From: an uncultured Kangiella sp. | GTDB taxonomy: Bacteria; Pseudomonadota; Gammaproteobacteria; Enterobacterales; Kangiellaceae | NCBI GenBank assembly: GCA_947498625.1 | Contig: CANMKR010000002.1 | Location: forward strand, 1-64,000 | Direction: 5' to 3' | DNA: 64,000 bases | Shown here: positions 23,734-27,531 of the stretch, piece after piece | Layout: each line of letters opens with the position of its first letter | Numbering within the stretch: position 1 is the stretch's first letter | Notes under the pieces: generated by a model | Told to the model about the DNA's origin: nothing | The model's input: the letters and a program-made list of their open reading frames with translations, nothing else | The model's database searches: none | Translations under genes and position numbers: made by a program

Positions 23734-26484
23734 CTAGACAGCTTTTCTTTTTCTTAGTCTTAATAATAAAACTAAGGAGATTAACCATCCCATCGAGCCA
23801 CCGCCACCGCCGCCACTTGTTGGAGGAGGTGTTGGTGCTGCATCATTATCAACAATAGTGACTGTCATGCTAGCTGGAGAACCTAATGTAGAGCCTTGAG
23901 CATTCGACAAAGTTACACTAATGGTTTCATTAGACTCATCTACTGTGTCGTCGATGATGTTGATCGTAAATGTCTTGCTTCCATCTTCACCGTCAGCCCA
24001 ATTTAACTGCCCAGATGTTGCTTCATAATCCGAACCTGCAGTTGCTGAACCATCTGCGGTAGCTATGTCGACTGATGCAGCGCCATTAGTACCACCAGCT
24101 CTGGTGACCGTTACAGTTACATTTGCGGTAGTTTCATTAACATTTGCACTACTAGCGCTAAATTGGAGGGTTCCAGGGCTGTCGTCATCGTTAACAGTTA
24201 CAGTTGCTGAGGCGTTAGTGCCAATTGTAGCTCCACCAGTCGCATTATTTAAAGCAACTGTAAATGTTTCTGAAGATTCTTCTGCGTTATCGTCTAAGAT
24301 AGATACATTAATTGTTTTAGCAGTGTTATCACCGTCAGCCCAACTTAATGTACCTGAGATCGATGTATAATCAGAGCCGTCAATAGCTGTGCCATCGCTA
24401 GTTGCAAAATCTACAGTTACAGCACCTTGAGAACCGCCTCTCTCAACGGTAATTGTCGCTGTGCCATCGGCTTCATTTACGGTCACAGCAGAAGGGTTTA
24501 CTTCGAACGAACCGGGAGTAGGGGCATTTAAATTGGCAGTAATAGTGTAGTCATGACTTACTTGCGCAAAGTTAACGACCACGATGTGGTATACACCTAC
24601 TTTCGGTGACGCTATGGTTACATTTTCATTACCATCTTGATTACCACTCACAAAAACATCAGGGTTGTTTCTATCGGTTACAAAAAAACCTTCTCCTTCC
24701 GGTGGGTCTAAAGTGATGTTGTATACCGGTGGTTTTTCGTATGCAACTATCAGATCGATATCAATTGAATTGGTCGAGGTAGTAGTAATTTCAAGATCGG
24801 TTGCGCCTGCAGGAACGTTGACCGTATAGGCATGGTATTCATCCCAAATCCAGCGTTGAAATGCTTGGCTGTGAGTTTCATTGATATTTATTTTGCTAAT
24901 TTCGTGGTAAAAATGCCTGGTATCCAAAGCTCCATTATCACTTGATAGAGCTAGAGAGAATAGTTCACTTTCATTTCCTAAAAAGTCATCTACGGTCACT
25001 TCAAAACTTAACTCAGCTGATTGATCTTGAGCTAAAGTTGCAAGGTTGGCTTGATTGCTATCAATAGTAACTATTGACGAACTAGTTGATAACGTAGCTG
25101 TAATGTTGTTTTCTGTTGACCATACATTTTCAATGGTTATTAAAAGATTAGCTGTTTCGCCTGGGTCCAAAACGCCATTATTATTGCCAGAAGTAGAATC
25201 ATCTATTACCACGCCAGTGATTTTGATTACGCCACCGACTGGAGCAGTTAAAGCTTTCACAGCATCTAGTCTACCTGTGGCGGTCATACCAACAAAAGAA
25301 GACTTAGATAATGTCGCCACACTTTCTTCTCCGCCGTTTAATAAATGAGCTTTTATTTGTTTATAGTCAGTAGCATTAGTGTTCTCTTTGATTAATGCGG
25401 CAACACCTGCAACTAAAGGACTTGAGAAAGAAGTGCCAGAGACAGATTGATAGTTTGAATTAATACTAGTTGTAAAAACCCCCTGTCCAGGACTTGCGAT
25501 ATCTGCTGTGAAGGAACCCCATTGTGACCAAGAAGTTATGCGATCCGTATTGTTAGAAGCAGCAACGGAAATCATATTGGGTAAGTCATAGTTGGCAGGA
25601 TATACAATTTGTCCTTTATCGTTGTTCATATCCCCATTACCAGCAGAGGTTACTAATAATACACCTGCGTCCATTGCTCGAGTATAAGCATCTAAACTCG
25701 CTTGACTGAATCCTGGGCCACCAAAACTCATGTTAATTATATCGGCATTTTGGGCAATAGCTTCATCGACTGCTTGGACAATTGCAGAAGCAGTTAAATC
25801 TACTTTTAATGGTAAAAGTTTGACTTGCCAGCTCGCTCCAGCAATACCTGTTGAATTATTAGCGGTTGCTGCAAATGTCCCGGCCACCCAAGTTCCATGT
25901 GTTTGATCATTAGCAGTGAAGCCGGCATCAGTTGTGCCTCCACAGTAAGTTGAGTCTGATGCAAAGCAGTTACCATTATTAATATAACTGCTGGTTAGAT
26001 CTGGGTGATTCAAATCAAACCCATCATCAATGACTGCAACTAGAGTATTTGGAGCAGAGTTTTGAATATCCCAAGCTGCAAACATGTTTAAATCAGCACC
26101 GCTTACCGTCGTATTATTTATATACCACTGATTAGATAGGTTGGTATCGTTTGGCGTGACTGTTGAGTAATATCGATAGTTCTTTTCAACATACTCATAT
26201 AAACCGGAATTCATTAACTGTTCAATCTTCTGATCAAGGTTTGAAGTTTTATCAATAACATTAATAACAGCATAATCGTCAGATGTTTTAAGCATTTCAA
26301 CGGAAACGCCCAAATTGCTTAACTGATATTTAGAAACGTAAGGAGCTGGCTTTAGCTTAGCGACTAATTGATTCGGTACAAACTCTTCTTTATCAGCTTG
26401 CGGAAGAAGCTTAGCGCTGACATTAGCAGAGTAGCCTGCAGCAAGAGTTGTTAAAAGTAAGGGATATATAAAGTTCTTTTTCAT
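23734..26484 (-). CDS. Secreted subtilisin-like serine protease with Calx-beta repeats and GlyGly-CTERM
   Basis: 916 residues. Signal peptide 1-24 (VSA cleavage); inhibitor I9-like prodomain about 35-108; S8 catalytic domain about 115-390 with the triad D153 (VAVIDDGFD), H196 (DQTHGTWVAG) and S352 (SGTSFSSPLVAG), and oxyanion N283 (SAGNGD). A beta-sandwich region (~400-660) precedes two Calx-beta domains (~665-890), whose acidic motifs (DDNAEESSETF, DDTVDESNETI) suggest calcium binding. The tail is a Pro/Gly-rich linker, a hydrophobic helix and RLRKRKAV: a GlyGly-CTERM signal, known to be processed by rhombosortase for type II-dependent surface release. The ATG at 26484 is preferred to an in-frame GTG at 26496. 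It lies 11 bases after the lipoprotein gene, in one operon. Confidence 0.9.
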   Translation of the reverse strand: MKKNFIYPLLLTTLAAGYSANVSAKLLPQADKEEFVPNQLVAKLKPAPYVSKYQLSNLGVSVEMLKTSDDYAVINVIDKTSNLDQKIEQLMNSGLYEYVEKNYRYYSTVTPNDTNLSNQWYINNTTVSGADLNMFAAWDIQNSAPNTLVAVIDDGFDLNHPDLTSSYINNGNCFASDSTYCGGTTDAGFTANDQTHGTWVAGTFAATANNSTGIAGASWQVKLLPLKVDLTASAIVQAVDEAIAQNADIINMSFGGPGFSQASLDAYTRAMDAGVLLVTSAGNGDMNNDKGQIVYPANYDLPNMISVAASNNTDRITSWSQWGSFTADIASPGQGVFTTSINSNYQSVSGTSFSSPLVAGVAALIKENTNATDYKQIKAHLLNGGEESVATLSKSSFVGMTATGRLDAVKALTAPVGGVIKITGVVIDDSTSGNNNGVLDPGETANLLITIENVWSTENNITATLSTSSSIVTIDSNQANLATLAQDQSAELSFEVTVDDFLGNESELFSLALSSDNGALDTRHFYHEISKININETHSQAFQRWIWDEYHAYTVNVPAGATDLEITTTSTNSIDIDLIVAYEKPPVYNITLDPPEGEGFFVTDRNNPDVFVSGNQDGNENVTIASPKVGVYHIVVVNFAQVSHDYTITANLNAPTPGSFEVNPSAVTVNEADGTATITVERGGSQGAVTVDFATSDGTAIDGSDYTSISGTLSWADGDNTAKTINVSILDDNAEESSETFTVALNNATGGATIGTNASATVTVNDDDSPGTLQFSASSANVNETTANVTVTVTRAGGTNGAASVDIATADGSATAGSDYEATSGQLNWADGEDGSKTFTINIIDDTVDESNETISVTLSNAQGSTLGSPASMTVTIVDNDAAPTPPPTSGGGGGGSMGWLISLVLLLRLRKRKAV

Positions 26485-26495
26485 AAAAAGTACCA

Positions 26496-26816
26496 CTATT
26501 TTGATTTCTTCATAGTGTGATTAGGTTCGGCATATCGAACCAGCTCACTTGAATTTAGTTGCTTGAGGATCATATCAATATCGTCAGTATTTTCTGTCTG
26601 AATTAAATAAGCGCCATCGTCAGTTATTTTCTGCATGACACTCGAATTTACTGATGACAAGAGATTAGACATCTGCTCATTAGTAATATCGGCTTTAAAA
26701 GCAACGATCATTTGGCTATTCCTTTCAGGCTCTGCTAGTTTTTCGCTTGCTTGTTTGCAAGATACCAAAAACAAAAAAATGCTTGTTATTACTAACATCA
26801 AGCTTATTCGTGTCAT
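26496..26816 (-). CDS. Lipoprotein resembling a free-standing subtilase propeptide (I9-like)
   Basis: 106 residues. The N-terminus is a lipoprotein signal ending LVSC, with the modified cysteine at residue 20. The remainder (about 36-102) reads like the ferredoxin-like propeptide of subtilases: MIVAFKADITNEQMSNLLSS at one end and LVRYAEPNHTMK at the other, the latter matching the conserved V-x-Y-x-E-P-N end of such prodomains. It directly precedes the S8 protease gene. Lipid-anchored in the periplasm, it could chaperone folding of the protease in trans or inhibit it before secretion; Aeromonas serine protease has a separately encoded chaperone as precedent. The protease also carries its own prodomain, so the role is inference. 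Confidence 0.65.
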   Translation of the reverse strand: MTRISLMLVITSIFLFLVSCKQASEKLAEPERNSQMIVAFKADITNEQMSNLLSSVNSSVMQKITDDGAYLIQTENTDDIDMILKQLNSSELVRYAEPNHTMKKSK

Positions 26817-27036: not shown

Positions 27037-27531
27037 ATGTTATCAATTAGGCTAGCTCAAACTTGGGCTCTGTTAGGTTTTTGTTTGCTTCTTGGGTATG
27101 CTGTATTTAGATTGTTTGGGCACTTCCAGGATTCTTGGAACCTAGAATACCATTGGTATCATTGGATTTTACTCGTCGTTAATACGGTTTTTATGGCTTA
27201 CTCAGAAGGCTATAAAGGCTTTCAAAACAGTTACTCCATTAAGTTTGCCGGTAGGTTGAAGCAGTTAGAAACAACTCCGAGCACACTCAAATTGCTACTG
27301 GCTCCTTTATTTTGCATGAACTATTTTGCCACTGCCAAAAAAGATATGATTTTGTCGTATGTCTTAACGGTGGCGATTATCGTATTGGTAATAGTTTTTA
27401 GTTTTATCCCTCAACCCTGGCGTGGCATTTTGGATGTAGGCGTCGTGGTCGGGCTTACCTACGGAATTATCGCAACTATATTGATTTCTGTATCTAGCCT
27501 CTTTGATTTTCAGCAAGATAGCAATACTTAG
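27037..27531 (+). CDS. Conserved inner-membrane protein of unknown function
   Basis: 164 residues with about four hydrophobic helices (near 10-28, 42-58, 106-124, 134-154). A soluble stretch between helices two and three includes EGYKGFQNSYSIKFAGRLK. No catalytic motif is visible and the family was not recognised by name. It stands alone between the protease operon (divergent, about 220 bp away) and the tRNA genes. That upstream gap holds a GAGCTTT/AAAGCTC hairpin (26978-26995) of unclear role. Confidence 0.65.
   Translation: MLSIRLAQTWALLGFCLLLGYAVFRLFGHFQDSWNLEYHWYHWILLVVNTVFMAYSEGYKGFQNSYSIKFAGRLKQLETTPSTLKLLLAPLFCMNYFATAKKDMILSYVLTVAIIVLVIVFSFIPQPWRGILDVGVVVGLTYGIIATILISVSSLFDFQQDSNT

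Follow-up and report, generated by a model that had tools for sequence, protein, structure and literature searches.

How Gram-negative cells silence broad-spectrum secreted proteases within the periplasm is, to our knowledge, known for few enzymes. Stand-alone mimics of the subtilisin propeptide of the I9 kind include POIA1 (Pleurotus proteinase A inhibitor 1), the yeast peptidase B inhibitor, Arabidopsis SPI-1, TgMIC5 and Plasmodium SUB1-ProM, the latter encoded beside its protease (PMC6993865). In bacteria, ORF2 is a separate chaperone of the subtilase ASP of Aeromonas sobria and also its inhibitor, with a half-maximal inhibitory concentration of 84.3 nM, and in the ORF2-ASP complex the ORF2 chain seems to touch the catalytic centre with its C-terminal lysine; since asp-orf2 operons have also been reported in Vibrio, Shewanella, Chromobacterium and Pseudoalteromonas, separate pairs of the ORF2 type are already known (PMC5638518). 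Equally, Lif/LipB and CpaB are membrane-tethered periplasmic partners encoded beside secreted enzymes (PMC4713064), while Bti/Bfi beside Bacteroides C10 proteases and Spi beside SpeB are small protease-adjacent proteins proposed to protect their maker (PMC3462683). A 64,000-nucleotide stretch of DNA from an uncultured Kangiella sp. (assembly GCA_947498625.1, contig CANMKR010000002.1, positions 1 to 64,000 of the forward strand), hereafter called the window, encodes on its reverse strand a small predicted lipoprotein with a subtilase propeptide-like domain, immediately upstream of an S8 (subtilisin-like) protease gene. With a probability of about one half, the function of this lipoprotein is that of a free-standing subtilase propeptide, held by a lipid anchor, which acts on the product of the next gene, the protease, in trans and mainly as an inhibitor.

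As in the I9 mimics, a small separate protein is predicted to have the propeptide fold, with E and D/N in helix-capping positions, here judged by the E-P-N spacing, and as for SUB1-ProM its gene lies beside that of a protease (PMC6993865). The named stand-alone I9 examples are, on the other hand, eukaryotic and, in the accessible part of that article, not described as lipid-anchored, and the window protein matches PF22148 and not Inhibitor_I9. The likeness to ASP/ORF2 consists in a separate bacterial protein beside an S8 protease, the C-terminal residue of ORF2 at the catalytic centre, the double role of ORF2 and a profile link described below; orf2, however, lies downstream of a protease called propeptide-deficient in a title cited in PMC5638518, whereas the window gene lies upstream, its product is a predicted lipoprotein and the protease keeps a weak prodomain (none is detected in the relative from Kangiella sp. 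HZ709). Lif/LipB and CpaB are anchored by an N-terminal transmembrane segment, and CpaB has a predicted SRPBCC domain, whereas the window protein combines a lipobox with a predicted propeptide fold; CpaB and LipB are experimentally required for secretion (PMC4713064). Some Bti proteins are predicted lipoproteins, but Bti/Bfi and Spi target cysteine proteases, and the Bacteroides inhibitors are staphostatin-like with predicted β structure and no subtilase propeptide (PMC3462683). A preliminary description of this DNA had stated that it knew of no described system with this exact layout: a literature search, with most subscription papers outside its reach, found no bacterial lipid-anchored subtilase propeptide encoded ahead of a protease that has a prodomain itself, but the general idea has precedents in the I9 mimics, ORF2, Bti and CpaB. 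New are the predicted lipid anchor, the upstream overlapping gene and the retained protease prodomain, whereas stand-alone propeptide-like proteins are known from eukaryotes and, as ORF2, from bacteria.

The predicted lipoprotein and its propeptide-like domain

The lipoprotein gene comprises the following features:

26496..26816, reverse strand: lipoprotein-borne propeptide-like protein, 106 amino acids (aa); open reading frame (ORF), PF22148 match of 41.5 bits, 48% identical relative in HZ709
26760..26816, reverse strand: predicted lipoprotein signal peptide, residues 1-19, read directly, followed by Cys20 (codon 26757-26759)
26520..26714, reverse strand: subtilase prodomain-like domain, residues 35-99, with YAEPN at its end; PF22148 match and fold model
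26499..26519, reverse strand: C-terminal tail HTMKKSK, 7 residues after AEPN, ending about at the usual propeptide/protease joint; junction count
26494..26498, reverse strand: stop/start overlap TAGTG between lipoprotein and protease genes (TAATG in HZ709); possible translational coupling

The ORF translation starts with a hydrophobic N-terminus, an LVSC|K lipobox and a short linker ahead of the prodomain-like residues, in agreement with the earlier view of a separate lipoprotein gene. Residues 35-99 match PF22148, Fervidolysin_NPro-like (fervidolysin N-terminal prodomain), with E 1.8e-10 at a cut-off of 21 bits and end in R-Y-A-E-P-N; given this score and E value the match is not by chance, and a random lipoprotein with a chance match is ruled out. 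In the Pfam search the protein matched neither PF05922 (Inhibitor_I9) nor PF18492 (ORF_2_N) at E <= 1, the lipoprotein of HZ709 scoring 13.4 bits against PF18492 (cut-off 29.2). At E <= 1, PF22148 has two places only in the whole own genome, the lipoprotein and the prodomain of the neighbouring protease.

An AlphaFold2 model based on a three-sequence alignment (mean pLDDT 78.3; residues 1-10 and 84-87 of low confidence) has a confident core of the order β-α-β-β-α-β, which is the topology of the subtilisin propeptide (PMC6993865). Foldseek against the Protein Data Bank (PDB) placed two pro-subtilisin E chains, the BPN' prosegment and a subtilisin-propeptide complex at ranks 1-4, while furin-bound prodomains, PCSK9 and POIA1 (rank 33; a stand-alone I9 inhibitor) were found at lower ranks, mixed with RRM, ACT and other similarly shaped domains. 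As fold and sequence family agree, the subtilase propeptide fold is established in prediction, and the propeptide fold assigned to the 106-residue protein in the preliminary description is thereby supported. Sequence searches were less telling: phmmer against PDB sequences returned just two unrelated chains (E 0.56-0.58), a profile search returned nine sequences at E <= 1, one of these named subtilisin (at 0.99), and tblastn of plasmids gave no match.

The length of the C-terminal tail can be compared with the propeptide/protease junction of S8 proteins. Among 28 distinct S8 proteins from the fetched loci that possess both motifs, the gap between the [ND] of [YF][AV]E[PLKE][ND] and the P[ND]D near the catalytic start, a proxy for the distance to the exact cleavage site, amounts to 8 residues in 26 proteins and 9 residues in two. 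After AEPN, the lipoproteins of the window and HZ709 extend for 7 residues and those of two other genomes of the class, G502 and G618, for 6 and 26 residues, respectively. Judged by these lengths, three of the four lipoproteins end about where a propeptide meets its protease, and their tails of 6-7 residues, against a junction of 8 residues, could reach the active site; the last residue is Lys in the window, Asn in HZ709 and His in G502.

Occurrence of the gene pair and related arrangements

The lipoprotein query matched four of 40 genomes of the family at E <= 0.01, namely its own, HZ709 (G024) and two with matches inside frames of 633-744 residues. Within the genus, two of 20 genomes encode the lipoprotein, and the same two are the only ones with a close protease homolog (protease query: own genome 913 bits, HZ709 709 bits, next best 155 bits). 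The gene pair of HZ709 has kept the lipobox, the AEPN motif, the tail length and the stop/start overlap, at an identity of 48% for the lipoprotein and 76% over the first 413 residues of the protease. Between both lipoprotein genes, nucleotide differences at the first, second and third codon position number 40/26/70 over 106 codons, which is consistent with selection on the protein sequence.

PF22148 as such is found more widely, with 39 places in 24 of the 40 family genomes (E <= 0.01), among which four lie in short frames (those of the two lipoproteins and frames of length 192 in G002 and 177 in G036), and 55 places in 48 of 394 genomes of the order (E <= 1e-5). Stand-alone by frame length are two of these 55, in G000 and G024, a third short frame (G075) being by eye a cut-short S8 protein. 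When 295 genomes of the order were searched with a single sequence, the two Kangiella genomes and no others were found; a contig scan found HZ709 only and, because just two short peptide patterns were used, says little on distant relatives.

In the class, PF22148 (E <= 1e-5) was found at 53 places, spread over 42 of 369 genomes; apart from that of the window, just one of these stands alone, in a 135-residue frame of G618, and another short frame, in G558, runs into the contig end. The G618 protein, from another family of the class, comprises 132 residues with the lipobox VMGC and the motif WAEPN and is encoded 22 bases upstream of the gene for an S8 protease of 705 residues, which has its own prodomain (PF22148, 49.1 bits) and the tail GVIGGGGGSFPISLLLVLGGIVLVYRRN. 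With the window, the lipoproteins are 27% and the aligned protease parts 36% identical. The lipoprotein/S8 pair, for which a genome survey had been suggested at the outset, is therefore present with the same layout in HZ709 and in a second family. A profile of three lipoproteins gave 22 matches in 18 of the 369 genomes, the best one outside the profile seeds (45.5 bits) being the 118-residue lipoprotein of G502 with the lipobox LFAC and the C-terminus YAEPNRVRRLH. By direct reading, all four lipoproteins possess the lipobox cysteine (LVSC in HZ709 as in the window), and their PF22148 scores are 41.5 (window), 39.4 (HZ709), 41.3 (G618) and 23.2 bits (G502).

A protease profile at E <= 1e-90 gave eight matches in seven of the 369 genomes: the window's own, G618, G502, G406, G436 (two), G454 and G692. 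Among ORFs of at least 70 residues, no propeptide lipoprotein was seen upstream of the G406, first G436, G454 and G692 proteases; the second G436 match has no upstream DNA because its start lies only 163 bases from the contig end. The two related S8 proteins of G436 have Gly-rich tails and lie on separate contigs (L127, L130), the ORF ahead of the L127 protein being by eye the end of another such protein. In G608 (L112:3576-3968) and G433 (L113:2071-2508), the gene immediately upstream of an S8 protease gene encodes a small lipoprotein of a different type, which looks fibronectin-like by eye and has no Pfam match that exceeds the cut-off.

Propeptide-like domains that are separate or membrane-tethered recur around S8 genes in other arrangements as well. 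In G036, of the window's family, a 176-residue protein with PF18492 ORF_2_N (56.7 bits) and PF22148 (22.3 bits) is encoded directly downstream of an S8/P-domain protein; in G600 the gene that overlaps the end of another S8/P-domain gene encodes a predicted lipoprotein of 218 residues, the C-terminus of which is PF22148-like (20.7 bits, cut-off 21). A PF22148 prodomain was undetected in both S8/P-domain proteins, and the two pairs (L116:1818-4673 in G036, L153:1504-3826 in G600) appear ASP/ORF2-like. Comparison of the four lipoproteins with these ORF2-type proteins by hhalign gave a probability of 89.4% (E 2e-06, 64 columns). Equally, G002 (L117:1523-4382) and G489 (L154:4050-5345) encode a predicted membrane protein (segment assigned by eye) with a PF22148-like C-terminus (24.3 and 17.4 bits) beside a sigma-factor-like gene, with an S8 gene directly after the membrane-protein gene of G002; the presence of zf-HC2 makes the G489 protein anti-sigma-like.

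As the simplest origin of the lipoprotein, recent copying of the prodomain next door was rejected; a similarity between the two can still be detected (34% identity, E 0.006). In a tree of 43 domains, the set left once duplicates and scores under 12 had been discarded, to which the two Kangiella prodomains were added manually, the two Kangiella lipoproteins form a group (96/86 support) with two anti-sigma-like proteins and the lipoprotein of G502. The two Kangiella prodomains are placed elsewhere, as is, with weak support (87/59), the G618 lipoprotein. These placements are tentative, since the domain is short, the branches are long, the rows were cut out with the lipoprotein profile and the placement of G618 is weak.

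The S8 protease, its prodomain and its C-terminus

The protease gene comprises the following features:

23734..26496, reverse strand: S8 (subtilisin-like) protease of 920 aa (GTG start) or 916 aa (ATG start at 26484); Peptidase_S8, 163.8 bits
26179..26409, reverse strand: the protease's own divergent prodomain; PF22148, 22.6 bits (genome search) and 18.1 bits (protein search)
25336..26049, reverse strand: S8 catalytic domain; Peptidase_S8 match and triad residues
23842..24189, reverse strand: Calx-beta domain, the better-scoring of two matched stretches; Pfam match
23746..23805, reverse strand: tail resembling GlyGly-CTERM, with Gly-rich, hydrophobic and basic parts; 12.6 bits for TIGR03501, under the cut-off of 15.5, and direct reading

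The TAG stop of the lipoprotein gene and the possible GTG start of the protease gene have one base in common, such that translational coupling is possible. Asp153, His196 and Ser352, presumably the catalytic triad by their motifs, are invariant in three homologs, and two stretches match Calx-beta (163.6 bits). That the protease has its own prodomain, as noted in the preliminary description, applies with the restriction that this prodomain is weak, above the PF22148 cut-off of 21 bits in the genome search and below it in the protein search.

The designation as a GlyGly-CTERM protease was likewise justified in part. The C-terminus SGGGGGGSMGWLISLVLLLRLRKRKAV resembles GlyGly-CTERM, sharing with rhombosortase substrates the tripartite tail and a rhombosortase in the genome (PMC3237569): TIGR03902 is encoded elsewhere in the own genome with 139.8 bits (cut-off 84; none of 14 control genomes over cut-off). 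Unlike recognized substrates, the tail is under the TIGR03501 cut-off, as is that of the HZ709 protease (11.8 bits), and the tails of the G618 and G502 proteases have no TIGR03501 match at E <= 10, though Gly-rich, hydrophobic and basic by direct reading. Kangiella koreensis is among the genomes listed for GlyGly-CTERM/rhombosortase in the same work, the main text of which uses neither "propeptide" nor "lipoprotein" (PMC3237569). By analogy with the GlyGly-CTERM literature, the protease may be exported by type II secretion.

Proposed inhibition in trans and alternative explanations

If the lipoprotein acts as an inhibitor of its neighbour, both proteins would be made together and the lipoprotein would be exported, lipidated at Cys20 and held at the membrane on the periplasmic side. 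In E. coli, aspartate at position +2 marks retention of a lipoprotein in the inner membrane. As residue +2 is Lys, Gly, Asn and Asn in the four lipoproteins found (Lys in the window) and Asp in none, the location would probably be the outer membrane if this +2 rule (referred to in PMC3462683) is applied. The propeptide-like domain would bind the catalytic domain such that E and N of AEPN take the helix-capping positions, and the short free C-terminal tail would occupy the groove of the active site in the manner of a product after cleavage. In this manner a protease that sheds its own prodomain too early would be capped until the enzyme leaves the cell and rhombosortase processes its C-terminus.

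In favour of inhibition are the predicted fold, the free C-terminal tail of suitable length, the predicted tethering, the strong own prodomain of the G618 protease and the precedent of ORF2 as an inhibitor; recurrence of the gene pair and the pattern of nucleotide differences between the window and HZ709 fit this proposal as well. Several observations weigh against it. In both Kangiella proteases the own prodomain is degenerate, scoring 18.1 bits in the window and giving no Pfam match at E <= 1 in HZ709, which would fit a chaperone to which folding has passed, and an AlphaFold model of prodomain plus catalytic domain was of such low confidence (pLDDT 36.2) that nothing was drawn from it. In Foldseek, E <= 0.001 is reached at rank 1 only, and RRM and ACT domains match too. 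The 26 residues beyond AEPN in G618 are a poorer fit to a product-like tail. The G502 lipoprotein is neighboured by a tsaD-like gene and a gene for a 216-residue protein and not by a protease, no S8 gene being seen in the 6,000 bases examined of the 8,513-base contig; a protease of this type is encoded on another contig of G502, its prodomain being strong (48.4 bits) and its tail Gly-rich, and no propeptide lipoprotein lies upstream. Occurrence away from subtilases, which the preliminary description had regarded as refuting its proposal if common, concerns one of the four lipoproteins found, those of the window, HZ709 and G618 being linked.

It is conceivable, though we would advance it as a tentative alternative, that the tethered propeptide is a chaperone in trans that brings about periplasmic folding of the protease and prepares it for secretion, in the manner of Lif for lipases, CpaB for CpaA and ORF2 for ASP, with inhibition as a by-product. 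The canonical domains of the two Kangiella lipoproteins versus the weak or undetected prodomains of their proteases fit this explanation, as do the profile link to the two ORF2-type proteins and the description of membrane-tethered chaperones beside type II substrates (PMC4713064). Yet the proteases of G618 and G502 have strong prodomains in genomes that nevertheless encode the lipoprotein, and the S8/P-domain partners of the ORF2-type proteins are without a detected PF22148 prodomain, whereas the window protease has one. As folding help is already supplied by the own prodomain in G618, an inhibitor is favoured there. Since ORF2 is both chaperone and inhibitor, the two roles may not exclude each other, and the lipoprotein is possibly also a chaperone like Aeromonas ORF2.

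The unlinked G502 gene, and a tree that does not group the Kangiella lipoproteins with the neighbouring prodomain, would also be expected if the target of the lipoprotein were some other protease, or if it inhibited proteases of the envelope in general, and the two genes were neighbours for historical reasons only; we consider this improbable in view of the linkage in HZ709 and G618, the restriction of lipoprotein and close protease homolog to the same two of 20 genus genomes and the presence of only these two PF22148 places in the own genome. Most improbable of all appears a functionless leftover copy of a prodomain, as might be imagined for a small, fast-evolving protein that is less conserved towards HZ709 than the first 413 residues of the protease and is present in few genomes: lipobox, AEPN, tail length and stop/start overlap are retained in HZ709, differences are in excess at third codon positions and the layout recurs in another family.

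A more far-reaching, and doubtful, extension of inhibition in trans is a safety system of two propeptides, in which the cis propeptide would fold the enzyme, while the lipid-anchored trans propeptide would patrol the periplasmic membrane surface, cap enzyme that becomes active too early and pass it on to secretion and surface anchoring. If true, the eukaryotic I9 mimics would have a prokaryotic counterpart tethered by lipid, and anti-sigma-like proteins would carry related membrane-tethered propeptide domains as well. A tethered propeptide with a gene of its own can be removed, relocated or exchanged while the protease is left unchanged, so that the folding and inhibiting roles of a propeptide are separable by experiment. 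Equally, the combination of a lipobox, PF22148 and an end soon after AEPN provides a short signature for finding more protease-guard pairs.

Next to the gene pair, the window encodes divergently a 164-residue membrane protein (27037-27531, forward strand) with sub-threshold matches only, to DUF4231 and SLATT; a similar ORF flanks the pair of HZ709 too (L009:8991-9518).

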